Of a stretch of 64,000 bases of DNA, positions 24,737 to 35,455 are shown piece after piece. A program made the position numbers and the translations under genes. Each line of letters begins with the position of its first letter. Positions within the stretch are counted from its first letter, which is position 1. Origin of the DNA: Microbacterium terrisoli (GTDB taxonomy: Bacteria; Actinomycetota; Actinomycetes; Actinomycetales; Microbacteriaceae); the NCBI RefSeq assembly GCF_030866805.1, contig NZ_CP133019.1:434001-498000 (forward strand). Direction: 5' to 3'. The notes under the pieces were generated by a model, which saw only the letters and a program-made list of their open reading frames with translations, had not been told where the DNA came from and searched no databases.

Positions 24737-24744
<8 letters not shown>
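23971..24744 (-). CDS. Fpg/Nei family DNA glycosylase (Nei2-like)
   Basis: A 257-residue base-excision-repair enzyme. The catalytic N-terminal proline and Glu are in MPEGDTVWQTAARL (P2, E3), the conserved lysine in VPRGKHIL, the helix-two-turn-helix in LAGLGNEYANELLFVRGI and a C-terminal zinc finger in CRRCGTLIRRMD...WCPRC. It removes oxidised pyrimidines or opens AP sites by beta/delta elimination. ATG 24744 overlaps the end of lhr by eight bases, an arrangement I recognise as common in actinobacteria, so helicase and glycosylase are likely co-translated. This is a complete, ordinary-length member. Confidence 0.93.
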
Positions 24745-29494
<4,750 letters not shown>

Positions 29495-29580
29495 TCCTCC
29501 ATCTTTACTGTGTTCGCCGACATCCGGGATAAGCTGGAGCTTCTTTGCCACGTGCAACCGAGTGGGGAAGGGGGCAGGTG

Positions 29581-30054: not shown

Positions 30055-30175
30055 CGCCGTGACCGGCCGCGGCGTGTGCCGCCGGCGGGCCCGGCCGCCC
30101 GACGACGGGCGACCCACGGAAGGGTGCTGCATCCGCGGCGGCCTCCGCCGACTCGCGTCTCTGGGGAGGACGACG

Positions 30176-32011
30176 TTGGCTGCATCAGAGCTGGGGCTCG
30201 AGCAGTGGCCCGAGGGCGTTGCTGCCCAATTGCTGAACCTGTCCGTGGATCTCACGTGCGTCGCGGGATTCGACGGATACTTCCGGGAGCTCTCCGAGGG
30301 GTGGATGCCGCTGCTCGGCCGGCCGATGTCGGTGCTGACCTCTCGTCCGCTGCTGGAGTTCGTGCACCCCGACGACGTCGACAGCACCGCCGCGGCGCTC
30401 GACGAGGCCCGTCGGGGCGGTGAGGTCACCTGCTTCGAGAACCGGTTCGTCGCAGCCGACGGCACGAACCGATGGCTGCAGTGGACGGCCGTCGGTGTGC
30501 CCGCCGAGCAGGGCTTCCGTGCCGTCGCGCGCGATCTCACCCCCCAGCGCGAGGCCGAGCTGGCGGTGGGCGAGAGCGAGCAGCGCTACCTCGACCTCAT
30601 CCAGTCCTCGTACGACATCGTGCAGTCCATCGCCCCCGACGGCCACTTCATGTTCGTCAACCGCGCGTGGCACGAGCATCTGGGCTACACCGAGGAGGAG
30701 CTGGCAGGCCTGACCCTGTTCGACATCGTCGTCGAGGCCGACTATGCGCACTGCTCGATGCTGATCGCCCGGCTCATGCAAGGAGAGTCGTTCGACCACG
30801 TCGAGGTGACCTTCATCGCCAAGGGCGGACGCACGTTCCCCGTCGAGGGCAACGCCACCGGACGCTTCCGCGACGGCGAGTACGTCGCCACACACACGTT
30901 CTTCCGCGACGTCACCGACGTGAGGAAGGCCGAAGCGCTGACCGCCGCCTACCAGCACGAACTCGAGCACGACGTCGCGGAGCGCTCCGCCGCTCTGGTG
31001 CGCAGCGAGAAGCTGGCGACACTGGGACGCCTGAGCGCGGGCATGGCGCACGAGCTGAACAACCCGGCCGCTGCGGCGCGGCGCGGCGCGGCGCAGCTGC
31101 AAGAGGCGGTGACCCGCACCTACACGGCGCTGACGGCGCTGGCGGCCGAAGAGTTCGACGCCGACGCCGTGACGCGACTGGGCGAGCTCATCCGGTCGGC
31201 CGCCGCCGGGGCGTCGTCGGTGACGACGCTGGACCCGCTGATTCGCAGCGACCGCGAAGAACAGGTCGAGCAATGGCTGCATGCCCGAGGCGTCGCCGAT
31301 TCGTGGTCGTTGGCGGGGTCTCTCGTGGCGCAGGAGCTCGACCCCGATGCACTCGACCGTGTTGCGGCATCCTTCCCGCCGTCGGCGCTGCCGGCGGTGC
31401 TGACCGCACTGGCGGACTCCTATTCGACCGCCGCGATCCTGGAGCAGATCGGGCACGGGGCCCAGCGCATCTCGCAGATCGTCGGGGCGCTCAAGGACTA
31501 CAGCTACATGGATCGCGCGCCGGTGCAGGATGTCGACGTGCACGACGGCCTGAACAGCACGCTGGTCATGCTGCAGTCCAAGCTCAAGAGCGGGATTGTG
31601 GTCGAGCGACAGTACGGGCCGGATCTGCCGCACATCGAGGCGCCGGGCAGCGAACTCAACCAAGTGTGGACGAACCTCATCGACAACGCGATCGATGCCA
31701 TGGGCGGCACGGGTCGGCTGGTGATCCGCACCGAGGCGGCCGGCGACGGCGTCGCGGTCGAGATCGAAGACGACGGCCCGGGCATCCCCTCCGGGGTGGT
31801 CGACAGGGTGTTCGATCCGTTCTTCACCACGAAGGGCCCCGGCCGGGGCACCGGGCTGGGGCTGAACATCACGTTCAACATCGTGCGCGGCTGCGGCGGA
31901 ACGATCGACGTCGATTCGCGGCCGGGACGAACCGTCTTCCGCGTACGGCTGCCGTTGCGCCTGGAAGCCGACAGAACACAGGATGCCGCAGCCGAAGGAG
32001 ACCCGTCATGA
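30176..32011 (+). CDS. PAS-domain sensor histidine kinase
   Basis: A 611-residue cytosolic kinase without membrane segments. Two PAS domains (about 15-120 and 135-250; for example HFMFVNRAWHEHLGYTEEEL and RDGEYVATHTFFRDVTDVRK) precede the dimerisation/phosphoacceptor segment LATLGRLSAGMAHELNNPAA with H292. The ATPase domain has NLIDNAIDAM (N box), IEDDGPGIP (G1), FDPFFTTKG (F box) and GTGLGLNITF (G2). I chose the TTG at 30176 because GGGGAGGA sits five bases upstream; an in-frame GTG at 30059 would add a Arg/Gly/Pro-rich tail without homology. Its stop overlaps the next gene by four bases, so its partner is the receiver-reductase fusion. Confidence 0.9.
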   Translation: MAASELGLEQWPEGVAAQLLNLSVDLTCVAGFDGYFRELSEGWMPLLGRPMSVLTSRPLLEFVHPDDVDSTAAALDEARRGGEVTCFENRFVAADGTNRWLQWTAVGVPAEQGFRAVARDLTPQREAELAVGESEQRYLDLIQSSYDIVQSIAPDGHFMFVNRAWHEHLGYTEEELAGLTLFDIVVEADYAHCSMLIARLMQGESFDHVEVTFIAKGGRTFPVEGNATGRFRDGEYVATHTFFRDVTDVRKAEALTAAYQHELEHDVAERSAALVRSEKLATLGRLSAGMAHELNNPAAAARRGAAQLQEAVTRTYTALTALAAEEFDADAVTRLGELIRSAAAGASSVTTLDPLIRSDREEQVEQWLHARGVADSWSLAGSLVAQELDPDALDRVAASFPPSALPAVLTALADSYSTAAILEQIGHGAQRISQIVGALKDYSYMDRAPVQDVDVHDGLNSTLVMLQSKLKSGIVVERQYGPDLPHIEAPGSELNQVWTNLIDNAIDAMGGTGRLVIRTEAAGDGVAVEIEDDGPGIPSGVVDRVFDPFFTTKGPGRGTGLGLNITFNIVRGCGGTIDVDSRPGRTVFRVRLPLRLEADRTQDAAAEGDPS

Positions 32012-33690
32012 GCGCCGCCGCCCCGGCATCCGGACCGACCGCCCGTCGTCGTCCCGTGATCCTGGCCGTCGATGACGACCAGGCGGTGCTGGCCGCCGTC
32101 CGGGCCGATCTGCGCGGACGCTACGGCCATGACCACCGCGTGATCGCCGTCGACGGCGGCGCACAGGCCATCACCACGCTCGGGCAGATGGCCGTGCGCG
32201 GCGATGAGGTCGCCGTCGTGGTCTGCGATCAGCGGATGCCCGACATCACCGGCGTCGACGTGCTGCGCGAGGCGTCTCGCCTGTTCGAGGGGGTGCGCAC
32301 CGTGCTGCTGACGGCGTATGCCGATACGGACGTCGCGATCGATGCGATCAACGATCTGCACCTGGACTACTACATCCTCAAGCCGTGGGACCCGCCCGAG
32401 GAGCGGCTGTTCCCCGTCATCGACGATCTGCTGGGCGACTGGCACGCGGCCCACCCGCCGATCCAGCAGCTGACCCGCGTTGTGGGAAGTCGCTGGTCGC
32501 AGGCCACGCACCTGGTGCGGGACTTCCTGCAGCGCAGTCAGATCCCGATGGTGTGGCTGGATGTCGACACCGACAAGCAGGCGCGGATGCTGCGCAGCGC
32601 CGCCGGCGACGGCGAGCTGCCCCTGGTGATCACGCCCGACGGAACGCAGCTGTCGGCCCCCGGCATCCCGGAACTGGCCGCCGCCCTCGGCCACCCCGCT
32701 CCCTCCGACGCGCAGACCTTCGACCTCGCGATCGTGGGCGCAGGGCCGGCAGGTCTTGCAGCGGCCGTGTACGGCGCCAGCGAGGGGCTGCGCACAGTGT
32801 GCATCGAGCAGATGGTCGCCGGTGGGCAGGCCGGGCAGTCCTCGCGCATCGAGAACTATCTCGGGTTTCCCAACGGCATCGCCGGGGCCGACCTCGCCCG
32901 ACGCGCCCTCACCCAGGCGCGACGCTTCCTGGTCGATGTGATGGCTCCGCAGACCGTGGCGGCGGTGGACGTGTCGGGCCCGTACCCGCAACTGACACTG
33001 GCCGGCGGGCAGACGGTCAGCTGCGGTGCGCTGATCCTGGCGTGCGGCGTGTCGTACCGCAGCCTCGACGTGCCCGGCAGCGACCGGTTCGAGGGGCGGG
33101 GCGTGTACTACGGCGCGGCGCTCAGCGAGCGCGACACCGTCGCGGGTGAAGACATCATCGTGGTGGGCGGGGCGAACTCGGCCGGCCAGGCAGCGGTCTT
33201 CTTCTCGGCATTCGCCCGGTCGGTGACCATTCTGTGCCGCGCCACCCAGCTGGGTGCCAAGATGTCGCAGTACCTGGTCGACCAGATCGCCGTGCTGCCG
33301 AACGTCACCGTCGAATGCGGCACCGTCGTGCGCGAAGTCGCGGGCGCCGACCATCTCGAGCAGGTGACGGTGGATGCCGTTTCGGGCGGCGACGAGCGCA
33401 TCCTGGCGGCCACCTCCCTGTTCGTGTTCATCGGCGCCTCGCCGCGCACCGACTGGTTGCCGCCGCAGATCGTGCGCGACGAGCGCGGATTCGTGGTGAC
33501 CGGCTCTGGGTTGGGCACCCAGCGTCACCGCACGGCGGACGGCGAGCGCGACCCGTTCCTCTACGAGACGAGCGTGGCGCGCGTGTTCGCCGTCGGCGAC
33601 GTGCGCGCACAGTCCGTCAAGCGCGTGGCCTCGGCCGTGGGTGAGGGGTCGGTGGCGGTGCAGTTCGTGCACCGCGTGCTGCACGAGTGA
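32008..33690 (+). CDS. response receiver fused to thioredoxin-fold and thioredoxin-reductase-like flavoprotein
   Basis: A 560-residue three-part protein. Residues about 15-145 are a receiver domain (AVDDDQ acidic pocket; VVVCDQRMPD with phosphoacceptor D74; LLTAYAD; LKPWD with K125). Residues about 155-230 look like a glutaredoxin/thioredoxin-type fold without a CxxC (SRWSQATHLVRDFLQRSQIP, then LPLVITPDGTQL). Residues 238-560 are a TrxR-like two-dinucleotide-domain reductase: FAD motif LAIVGAGPAGLAAA, GGQAGQSSRIENYLGFP, and NAD(P)H motif IIVVGGANSAGQAA. Where TrxR has CATC, this protein reads GRGVYYGAALSE, so the redox-active cysteines are absent. ATGA overlap with the kinase gene makes it the output of that kinase. 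The reaction driven by phosphorylation is unknown; possible acceptors include quinones or a separate partner protein. Confidence 0.88.
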   Translation: MSAAAPASGPTARRRPVILAVDDDQAVLAAVRADLRGRYGHDHRVIAVDGGAQAITTLGQMAVRGDEVAVVVCDQRMPDITGVDVLREASRLFEGVRTVLLTAYADTDVAIDAINDLHLDYYILKPWDPPEERLFPVIDDLLGDWHAAHPPIQQLTRVVGSRWSQATHLVRDFLQRSQIPMVWLDVDTDKQARMLRSAAGDGELPLVITPDGTQLSAPGIPELAAALGHPAPSDAQTFDLAIVGAGPAGLAAAVYGASEGLRTVCIEQMVAGGQAGQSSRIENYLGFPNGIAGADLARRALTQARRFLVDVMAPQTVAAVDVSGPYPQLTLAGGQTVSCGALILACGVSYRSLDVPGSDRFEGRGVYYGAALSERDTVAGEDIIVVGGANSAGQAAVFFSAFARSVTILCRATQLGAKMSQYLVDQIAVLPNVTVECGTVVREVAGADHLEQVTVDAVSGGDERILAATSLFVFIGASPRTDWLPPQIVRDERGFVVTGSGLGTQRHRTADGERDPFLYETSVARVFAVGDVRAQSVKRVASAVGEGSVAVQFVHRVLHE

Positions 33691-33733: not shown

Positions 33734-35386
33734 TCAGCCGCGCTGCGTCAGCCCGTCGGCAGTGAGCTCGAGCGTCGTGTCGACGTCGAGCCGGCCGAGG
33801 AACGCGTCGTCGTGGCTGACCACGAGCACCGCGCCGCGGTAGGCCGAGAGGGCCGCGACGAGTCGGCCGACGGTGTCGAGGTCGAGGTTGTTCGTCGGCT
33901 CGTCGAGCACGAGCAGCTGCGGCGGTGGGTCGGCCAGCAGCAGCCGCGCCAGCGCCACCCGGAACCGCTCGCCGCCCGACAGTGACGCGACCGGCCGATC
34001 CACGGCATCCCCTCGGATCAAGAACCGGGCGAGCCGGTTGCGGATCTCGGCCGGCGGCACACCGGGAGCGGCCGCGCGCACGTTCGCGAGCACGCTGGCG
34101 ATCTCATCCAGCCCGTCGACGCGCTGCGGCAGGTACCCGATGCGGTCGGTGTGCGCCTCGGCGTATGCAGAACTCATCCATTCCGCGTCCGAAGGGCCGG
34201 AATCGTCTCGTCTCATGCTCGAATCGTCGAGATCGACGGAGTTCTGAACGCCCGACGCGATCAGCCGCTCGAGCAGCGTCGTCTTCCCGGCACCGTTCGC
34301 GCCGATCAGCGCCACCCGCTCGGGCCCCTGGACGATCCACGCGTGCTCGGCGTCGCCGATCGTCGCGATCCGCCGCCCGGCGGGTACCCCCGGGTCGGGC
34401 AGGTCGATCACGACCCTGTCGTCGTCGCGCACTCGCCGCTCGGCGACATCGAGCGCCGCCCGGGCCGTCGTCTCCTTCGCTCCGACCTCGGTGCGCAGCT
34501 TGCCGGCCGAGACCTGGGCGGCGCGCTTGCGTCCGTTCATGATGATCTTCGGCTCGCGCTTCTCGGCATAGGCCTTGTTGCCGTACGCCCCACGGCGGGC
34601 GATCTTGGTCTCGGCCTCGACGCGCTGGCGCTTCTCACGCGCGAGCACCTGGGTGGCGGCGCGCTCGGCTTGACGCGCGGCGGACTGCTCGGCATCCAGC
34701 CATGCGTGCCACTCAGAGTACGGCCCGCCGAACACGCTCAGCTCGTTGCCGTACAGCTCGGCGGTGTCGTCCATGAGCTCGAGCAGCGCGAGGTCGTGGC
34801 TGACGACGACCAGCGTTCCGCGCCAGCCGAGCACCAGGTCGTACAGCCGCGCCCGCGCGTCGCGGTCGAGGTTGTTCGTCGGCTCGTCCAGCAGCGTGAT
34901 GGGCGCACCGCGCAGCCGGATGCCCGCGACCGCCGCAAGGACCGCCTCGCCGCCGGAGAGTTCGCCCACACGACGCCCGAGCGCCCCTTCGGGCAGCCCT
35001 GCCTCGGCGAGGGCGGCCGCAGCCCGGGCCTCGATGTCCCAGTCGGCGCCGACCGTGTCGAAGTGCCGCGGGTCTATGTCGCCGGACTCGATCGCGCGCA
35101 GCGCGGCGATCGTGTCGGCCACGCCCAGCAGCTCGGCGACCGGCCGGTCGACGTCCAGGGTCAGCTGCTGGGGCAGCAACGCGATGTCGGATGCCGCGGA
35201 CACGCGTCCGGCGGTCGGGGCGAGTTCGCCCGCGATGACGCGCAGCAGGGTCGACTTGCCGGATCCGTTGCGGCCGATCAGGCCCGTGCGTCCGGAGCCG
35301 AACGCGCCCGAGACGTCGTCGAGCGCGAGCGAGCCGTCCGGCCAGGCGAGCGTGATGCGGTCCAGGATGATGGGGGTGTCGTGCAT
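33734..35386 (-). CDS. ABC-F family ATP-binding protein
   Basis: A 550-residue soluble protein with two ABC cassettes and no membrane domain. The first has LIGRNGSGKSTLLRVIAGEL, the signature GELSGGEAVLAAV and ITLLDEPTNNLD. The second has LIGANGAGKTTLLERL, the signature ASLSGGERFRVAL and LLVLDEPTNNLDLD. The P-site linker between them is Arg/Lys/Ala-rich (REKRQRVEAETKIARRGAYG). ABC-F proteins act on ribosomes; some confer antibiotic resistance. The start is ATG 35386 with AGGAGGA. The second cassette carries an unusual insertion after its Walker A region (residues about 381-407). The gene has a 210-base leader with a peptide ORF and three hairpins, the layout of ribosome-mediated attenuation. 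A role in antibiotic protection is inferred. Confidence 0.9.
   Translation of the reverse strand: MHDTPIILDRITLAWPDGSLALDDVSGAFGSGRTGLIGRNGSGKSTLLRVIAGELAPTAGRVSAASDIALLPQQLTLDVDRPVAELLGVADTIAALRAIESGDIDPRHFDTVGADWDIEARAAAALAEAGLPEGALGRRVGELSGGEAVLAAVAGIRLRGAPITLLDEPTNNLDRDARARLYDLVLGWRGTLVVVSHDLALLELMDDTAELYGNELSVFGGPYSEWHAWLDAEQSAARQAERAATQVLAREKRQRVEAETKIARRGAYGNKAYAEKREPKIIMNGRKRAAQVSAGKLRTEVGAKETTARAALDVAERRVRDDDRVVIDLPDPGVPAGRRIATIGDAEHAWIVQGPERVALIGANGAGKTTLLERLIASGVQNSVDLDDSSMRRDDSGPSDAEWMSSAYAEAHTDRIGYLPQRVDGLDEIASVLANVRAAAPGVPPAEIRNRLARFLIRGDAVDRPVASLSGGERFRVALARLLLADPPPQLLVLDEPTNNLDLDTVGRLVAALSAYRGAVLVVSHDDAFLGRLDVDTTLELTADGLTQRG
34168..34246. repeat. hairpin-rich in-frame insertion in the ABC-F gene
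   Basis: CAGAACTC (34168-34175) and GAGTTCTG (34239-34246) enclose a second pair, ATTCCG (34180-34185) and CGGAAT (34198-34203). The segment encodes VQNSVDLDDSSMRRDDSGPS and the following residues, between the second Walker A helix and the HTDRIGYLPQR motif, where ABC-F proteins normally have a shorter link. Confidence 0.45.
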
Positions 35387-35396
35387 GAGGTCCTCC

Positions 35397-35455
35397 TCGG
35401 TGTCGGATGCGCCGACACCGATGCCCGAGGCATCCCGCACAGTGCGGGAGGAGAG
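35397..35455 (-). promoter_or_regulatory. three tandem hairpins and an anti-ribosome-site in the ABC-F leader
   Basis: Hairpin 1: TCGGTGTCGG (35397-35406) with CCGACACCGA (35412-35421). Hairpin 2: GATGCC (35420-35425) with GGCATC (35429-35434). Hairpin 3: CCCGCAC (35434-35440) with GTGCGGG (35442-35448). In the transcript they follow each other immediately before the ribosome site AGGAGGA. TCCTCC (from 35447-35454) could alternatively pair with that site. The hairpins share bases at their junctions, so mutually exclusive folds are possible. Confidence 0.65.

Follow-up and report, generated by a model that had tools for sequence, protein, structure and literature searches.

Thioredoxin reductase (TrxR) has been listed among the predicted enzymatic output domains of response regulators, and its joining to a receiver (REC) domain appears as a 'Mycobacterium-like combination' in the accessible portion of the same source (PMC5847659). 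Here we describe such a fusion in Microbacterium terrisoli, within a window of 64,000 nucleotides (contig NZ_CP133019.1, positions 434,001 to 498,000) to which all plain coordinates below refer. The locus comprises a response regulator gene (32008..33690, + strand), whose 560-amino-acid product, hereafter the window protein, carries a REC domain, a glutaredoxin-like domain and a TrxR-like flavoprotein domain, and, upstream of it, a gene for a sensor histidine kinase of 611 amino acids (30176..32011, +). On balance, we favour the view that the pair encodes a two-component system whose output is enzymatic, a putative phosphorylation-controlled, non-thiol NAD(P)H:flavin oxidoreductase.

Comparison with described systems

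The fusions already described share the same two named domains with the window protein, which likewise unites REC and a TrxR-like domain in a single chain. Compared by description only, the accessible portion of that account contains neither the cysteine loss reported below nor a glutaredoxin-like domain, a dedicated kinase, a zinc-finger protein of the zf-UBP family or a function (PMC5847659). A search of the open-licence literature, with most subscription papers lying outside it, returned no functional study of a REC-TrxR fusion, nor was the cysteine loss, the kinase insertion or the zf-UBP link reported in it. The two-domain fusion is already in print, and the system is real and apparently uncharacterised.

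Among characterised flavoproteins, AhpF shows the same order of parts, a thioredoxin/glutaredoxin-like part followed by a TrxR-like part, the likeness residing in that order and in the folds. AhpF needs two CxxC centres. The N-terminal one is documented as a Cys pair in the accessible portion of its description (PMC8945050). In the window protein, by comparison, both centres are replaced (S164-x-x-T167 and YGAA) and the first element is a REC domain. AhpF (4xvg) was the top Foldseek row, with 558 aligned columns, but the root-mean-square deviation of 24.4 and TM score of 0.37 indicate that the overall arrangement is not shared; the structural alignment with AhpF (VIA) covers only residues 217-560, and the NCBIfam AhpF model TIGR03140 scored 157 bits, below its cut-off of 502.9. 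TrxB shares the flavin adenine dinucleotide (FAD) and NAD lobes, with ∼30% identity between the window protein and solved TrxRs, whereas the window protein lacks CATC, has an altered NADPH phosphate site and shows VKRVAS where the host genome's own TrxR (locus L082) has YRQAVT. TrxR-like ferredoxin/flavodoxin-NADP reductases and YpdA/Bdr gave weaker sequence matches than TrxRs did, the YpdA model matching only residues 335-484 with 44.6 bits against a cut-off of 339.9 (NCBIfam), and to our knowledge neither group has a REC domain, a glutaredoxin-like domain or a YYGA motif. Further counterparts are the proteins named 'cyclic nucleotide-binding domain-containing thioredoxin-disulfide reductase' by NCBI, which have the same core of a glutaredoxin-like domain and a YYGA/YYAA TrxR-like domain. 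They differ from the window protein in that a cyclic nucleotide-binding domain (CNBD) replaces REC and that no related kinase lies nearby in 18 loci of the genus, which are of CNBD, decayed-REC or other REC-less type.

A flavoprotein core without thiol centres

The TrxR-like domain, of the low-Mr FAD/NAD(P)H type, spans residues 238-558 (32719..33681, +; Pfam Pyr_redox_2, 238-547). At residues 367-374 (33106..33129, +) the octet YYGAALSE stands in place of the redox CATCDG, and its alignment with the W-CATCDG of the host's own TrxR bears out the replacement that an earlier, sequence-only reading of this DNA had proposed. Across 81 aligned rows, that is, the window protein plus the best 80 loci, the octet is mostly [FY]YG[AS][AS]x[TS]E, with Y368, G369 and E374 invariant in 81/81 rows from several phyla. 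This invariance at the CATCDG site points to selection on a different site and not to decay, and a degenerate pseudogene is ruled out because the substituting residues do not vary from phylum to phylum. The protein therefore keeps the two-lobe FAD/NAD(P)H fold of low-Mr thioredoxin reductases and lacks their redox-active CxxC (CATC). Its score with NCBIfam TIGR01292 is 207.2 bits, below the cut-off of 343.45, and an ordinary thioredoxin reductase is ruled out by the cysteine loss together with the curated cut-offs missed. Pfam detected no DNA-binding domain in the 560-amino-acid protein. Many relatives are called 'thioredoxin reductase' or 'FAD-dependent oxidoreductase' in their source records; those aligned here lack the defining chemistry of a thioredoxin reductase.

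The sequence-only reading had also proposed, as checks, a structure prediction and a search for conserved residues around the flavin. The AlphaFold2 (AF2) model of the 560-residue protein (predicted local distance difference test, pLDDT, 87.3; predicted TM score, pTM, 0.76) folds as a flavoprotein of the TrxR type, and conservation in the 81 rows is 98-100% for the FAD-site motifs GxGxxG, E267, GGQAG and G530-D531-x-R533. The two lobes of TrxR alternate between a flavin-oxidised arrangement, with CATC in contact with the flavin, and a flavin-reducing one, with the nicotinamide in that position. The modelled TrxR module fits ten PDB entries at the top of the list at 1.7-2.2 Å and many other TrxRs at 5-8 Å. 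The Lactococcus enzyme in its flavin-reducing form (5mh4) superposes at 1.7 Å, the same enzyme in its flavin-oxidised form (5mjk) at 7.6 Å and a further flavin-oxidised entry (5w4c) at 5.4 Å, redox states being taken from entry titles, which name them in some cases only. The flavin-reducing-like arrangement of the model would suit an enzyme without a CATC half-cycle.

The glutaredoxin-like domain occupies residues 155-228 (32470..32691, +), where strands alternate with helices in the AF2 model. Pfam gave no glutaredoxin match for this region of the window protein alone; a profile of 38 family members matched the solved glutaredoxin 2lqo (Rv3198.1) with an E value of 2.6e-8, and PF00462 was matched by 29/38 members with E values of 1 or lower, the best being 2e-6. 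The W-CGYC stretch of 2lqo is aligned to W-S-P-x-S in the family, corresponding to W163-S164-x-x-T167 in the window protein; S164 with S or T at position 167 occurs in 66/81 rows, while P205 and G228 are invariant. The thioredoxin/glutaredoxin-like fold without CxxC suggested earlier can hence be specified, through the family profile, as glutaredoxin-like, with S164-x-x-T167 replacing the CxxC.

At least 8000 relatives of the flavoprotein were found at E ≤ 1e-3, all 8000 scored candidates being relatives, so that the pattern goes well beyond chance; the best 80 loci include, according to record titles, Cyanobacteria, Bacteroidetes, Chloroflexi, Acidobacteria, Gemmatimonadetes and Proteobacteria. 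Related fusions had been noted for other actinobacteria; they do exist, but among these best 80 loci they extend over several phyla and are not confined to actinobacteria. The number of relatives and the wide range of phyla rule out a local oddity of the host genome.

An intact receiver and a dedicated kinase

The REC domain covers residues 18-130 (32059..32397, +; Pfam Response_reg). The acid pair D22 D23, the phosphoacceptor D74 (codon at 32227..32229, +), T102 and K125 are present in 81/81 rows; D74 and K125 had rightly been called intact before. A receiver fold with acid pair, Asp, Thr/Ser and Lys is accordingly joined, as in two-component response regulators, by a kinase gene alongside. 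The full conservation of these residues and the near-full conservation of the FAD motifs speak for a functional switch and a retained cofactor.

The kinase gene starts with TTG, six bases 3' of a likely Shine-Dalgarno sequence, GGGGAGG (30163..30169, +), and shares an ATGA overlap with the flavoprotein gene according to the coordinates read from the sequence; together with the flanking genes described below, this makes the two look like a two-gene unit. Its product contains two PAS domains (residues 39-113 and 152-248, best Pfam stretches; 30290..30919, +), a DHp region and HATPase_c (residues 493-595; 31652..31960, +; Pfam). H292 of the H-box AHELNNP (31049..31051, +) is invariant in the 37 rows of alignment A2, as are N504, D532, G534, G536, G556, G558, G560 and G562. 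The histidine of the H-box and the N and G boxes are thus those of a HisKA kinase, although the Pfam HisKA score of 19.7 lies below the cut-off of 26.9. A compact two-helix DHp is not found: the AF2 model (pLDDT 80.5, pTM 0.50) places a four-helix insertion (residues 324-401; 31145..31378, +) between the two DHp helices, with one helix at 249-323, four within 329-398 and another at 402-446, and the block reaches pLDDT 81-98 over residues 321-410. The same stretch is carried by the neighbouring kinases of the relatives. The equivalent of residues 306-428 measures 118-132 amino acids in 65/67 of them, the truncated L049 and L074 being left out, and their N-terminal parts are variable (PAS, CNBD and others). 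No known relative of the insertion was convincing by Pfam (scattered matches in at most 2/34 members at E up to 0.1) or by PDB sequence (best E 0.39), and a Foldseek search with the whole kinase, the insertion not being queried by itself, returned ordinary kinase matches. The earlier description of the kinase as soluble agrees with the absence of any transmembrane segment apparent by eye, in Pfam or in the model, no transmembrane predictor standing behind this statement.

A related kinase lies within 600 bp of the core in 67/80 loci, downstream in 47, upstream in 17 and divergent in three. The association was also followed in two genome samples, one of 99 genomes of the genus (35 core-positive at E ≤ 1e-60) and one of 296 Actinomycetota genomes (72 core-positive at E ≤ 1e-50); copy numbers are lower bounds, the best 14 or best 4 candidates per genome having been scored in most genomes, and the Fisher tests applied to these samples ignore relatedness. 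A profile of the insertion (E ≤ 1e-8) matched in 35/296 Actinomycetota genomes, all 35 being among the 72 core-positive ones, and in 0/224 core-negative genomes. At the level of single copies, a kinase with the insertion occurs within 2.5 kb of 37/41 REC-covering homologues of at least 48% identity, a number that includes two incomplete ones (G140:C253, truncated where its contig ends, and G239:C205, with two stops), compared with 0/33 REC-covering homologues below 48% identity and 0/17 copies without REC coverage. This count used 91/105 core match rows; the 14 fragments or weak matches left out have no match to the insert-kinase on their contigs, and 10/52 kinase matches are more distant, several of these being next to other copies that share the contig. 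As a sequence marker of the pathway, the insertion is clean. Close groups of two or three related kinases near a single flavoprotein gene were seen in loci L008, L009, L013 and L017 and on contigs of genomes G228, G293, G325, G335 and G346, a clustering that suggests several inputs onto one output.

Receiver integrity follows the kinase. Among 22 REC-like domains from copies without an insert-kinase nearby, none (0/22) has the full switch set, T102 being lost in 21/22, and L135 comes nearest to it. These 22 comprise the genus proteins L083, L084, L085 and L087 and 18 distant REC-covering copies, from a total of 33 of which 20 were fetched, with L129 and L130 left out and thirteen unread. Such decayed receivers, or pseudo-receivers, are found in L083-L085, L087 and most of L124-L143. 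Gene pairing and this covariation of the switch residues with kinase presence lead us to expect phosphotransfer from the kinase to D74, and on these sequences the phospho-switch looks real. In other relatives the N-terminal region is different altogether. Pfam identified a cNMP-binding domain in place of REC in L086 and L089 and no N-terminal domain in L088, a search with L089 retrieved a large CNBD-fused family, and 40/45 core matches in the genus sample start at query residue 147 or later. In the 18 loci retrieved from the genus, whose cores have a CNBD, a decayed REC or otherwise no REC, a related kinase is absent throughout (0/18). With a cNMP-binding domain attached to the same core in some relatives, the N-terminal domain can be regarded as a swappable control and the flavoprotein as the common output.

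A zf-UBP protein as candidate partner

In 33/80 loci a zf-UBP domain is encoded no more than 366 bp away from the core or the kinase, or else inside the frame of the kinase itself, including those of Streptomyces, Pseudonocardia, Dyadobacter, cyanobacteria, Acidobacteria, a betaproteobacterium and Chloroflexi, and a zf-UBP gene also stands beside several CNBD-type cores. It is fused to the kinase N-terminus in L030 (Chloroflexi; L030:2188-3876) and to the C-terminus in L049 (a cyanobacterium; L049:8060-9727). In the genus sample, zf-UBP was found in 35/35 core-positive versus 8/64 core-negative genomes, and in the Actinomycetota sample in 49/72 versus 19/224. The host genome has its own copy outside the window, unlinked to the pair and with an open frame (G000:C1:246975-247169; L110:5907-6281), whose product scores 51.5 bits with PF02148 (cut-off 22.7) and retains the Cys/His ligands. 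Over 55 rows, C9, C12, C25, C28, C33, C34, H41, H45 and H51 are conserved at 98-100% and H30 at 81%. Its closest match in the PDB, 2ida, carries no name beyond 'Hypothetical protein'; eukaryotic members of zf-UBP bind the C-terminal Gly-Gly of ubiquitin-like proteins.

Clustering of the neighbouring genes revealed, beyond the core and the kinase, no family in more than 7 of 81 loci, that one being short-chain dehydrogenases, and a shared wider operon is not supported. As this clustering missed zf-UBP, later found by profile, other short genes may have been missed as well. The small zf-UBP protein is the sole recurring candidate partner found and provides a concrete partner to test.

Functional interpretation

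The sequence-only reading had inferred that phosphorylation gates a flavin redox activity or a redox-sensing output, so that signalling may run by electron flow. Its gating part is favoured by the switch residues and its flavin part by the thiol-free TrxR fold, both as seen in the aligned sequences, with the redox activity and the electron flow themselves putative. In view of the retained FAD motifs and of the invariant substitutes at the CATC site, we read the output as flavin chemistry without a thiol relay. From the anatomy, conservation, gene pairing and co-occurrence established above, we infer the following course of events. The cytosolic PAS-PAS kinase would autophosphorylate at H292 and phosphorylate the receiver in turn at D74; the phospho-receiver would then reposition the redox-inactive glutaredoxin-like domain and the two TrxR-like lobes. 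This movement would switch, in one direction or the other, an NAD(P)H-to-FAD oxidoreductase, with electrons passing from the flavin directly to a non-disulfide acceptor, be it a small molecule, O2, a quinone or a protein. In many relatives the zf-UBP zinc protein would belong to this pathway too, whether as a partner, as an adaptor for the target or as the acceptor.

Several observations weigh against this interpretation. HRRDELRA of the own TrxR is CRATQLGA in the window protein, most of the HRRxxxR residues being gone; in TrxR these residues bind the 2'-phosphate of NADPH, and their loss makes dinucleotide use uncertain. A lone cysteine, C378, is present in 71/81 rows, with V in the window protein and residues other than Cys in 10 rows. 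The lobe arrangement is an AF2 prediction. No kinase above 80 bits lies within 600 bp in 13/80 loci, four of which have one at 0.9-2.4 kb and nine none above 80 bits, some contigs ending early. Finally, zf-UBP was absent by search in 27/46 core genomes without an adjacent copy, their completeness not being stated, and in 23/72 core-positive Actinomycetota genomes (14/63 if nine genomes with weak best core matches, 9.6e-60 to 5.6e-53, are dropped), and the 27/46 and 23/72 rule out an obligatory partner.

The main rival is a redox-dead scaffold that binds FAD and perhaps NAD(P)H without catalysis, reads the NAD(P)H/flavin state and binds a partner such as zf-UBP under REC control. Replacement of both thiol centres, the glutaredoxin CxxC mostly by S-x-x-S/T and the TrxR CATC by YGAxx, is what such a scaffold would show, and the presence of zf-UBP in all 35 core-positive genomes of the genus sample, as well as its fusions to the kinase in L030 and L049, suit a binding output. 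However, three invariant residues at the replaced site and the retention of both FAD and NAD-lobe motifs are as expected for catalysis, and we regard the scaffold as an unlikely, though serious, competitor. Still less probable is that the flavin domain serves as the input, its redox state controlling phosphorylation or dephosphorylation of REC, as a redox sensor feeding another output. A REC domain joined in one protein to a flavoprotein without known substrate would accommodate this, and two inputs could converge, the kinase having PAS sensors of its own; the N-terminal partner in the CNBD relatives examined is, nevertheless, itself of sensor type, leaving the flavoprotein as the output, and clustering revealed no further frequent family around the 80 loci, no search having been aimed at a second response regulator. 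A thiol-disulfide reductase working through other cysteines, or through a mycothiol or thioredoxin partner docking on the glutaredoxin-like domain, is the least probable of all: the TrxR fold, Rv3198.1 as best PDB profile match and the frequent C378 speak for it, but residues 150-560 of the window protein contain no CxxC, only 4/81 rows have one after position 150, C378 is variable, and the window protein's cysteines 73, 265, 339, 346, 410 and 437 are not conserved, the best, 339, being Cys in 38/81 rows.

Returning to the phosphorylation-controlled oxidoreductase, we tentatively extend it to a three-part module, as such not found in the open-licence literature, in which the kinase with its family-specific DHp insertion, an AhpF-like flavoprotein that is switchable and free of the cysteines, and zf-UBP, as a dedicated electron acceptor or target adaptor, would act together; a target bound by zf-UBP would undergo flavin chemistry once this is triggered by phosphorylation or, where a single gene suffices, by a domain of the cyclic-nucleotide type. 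This fuller scheme is doubtful, and if true, the output of a two-component system would be a redox reaction instead of transcription. If the oxidoreductase reading holds, phosphotransfer would act directly on a flavin oxidoreductase in many bacteria, which is uncommon among two-component outputs, and an entire family of switchable enzymes would be awaiting its substrate.

Genomic context

The host genome is a single contig of 3,625,519 bases, and the closest named relative of the 560-amino-acid protein is that of Microbacterium sp. H1-D42 (76%). Coordinates and anatomy of the locus, with a PAS-PAS kinase gene overlapping a single multidomain gene, agree in the sequence and in Pfam with what had first been read from it. 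New relative to that reading are the spread over phyla, the Ser/Thr residues that stand for both glutaredoxin cysteines, the CNBD as an alternative switch, the DHp insertion of the kinase and the zf-UBP partner. Just upstream of the pair lies a gene of the GreA/GreB C-terminal type (PF01272; 29545-29982, +), and 3' of it, convergent, an ABC-F-like ATPase gene (33734-35440, -; ribo_prot_ABC_F 279.7 bits, under the cut-off of 380). A long open reading frame of 1606 amino acids (24737-29557, -) resembles, by eye, a large Lhr-type DEAD/H helicase.

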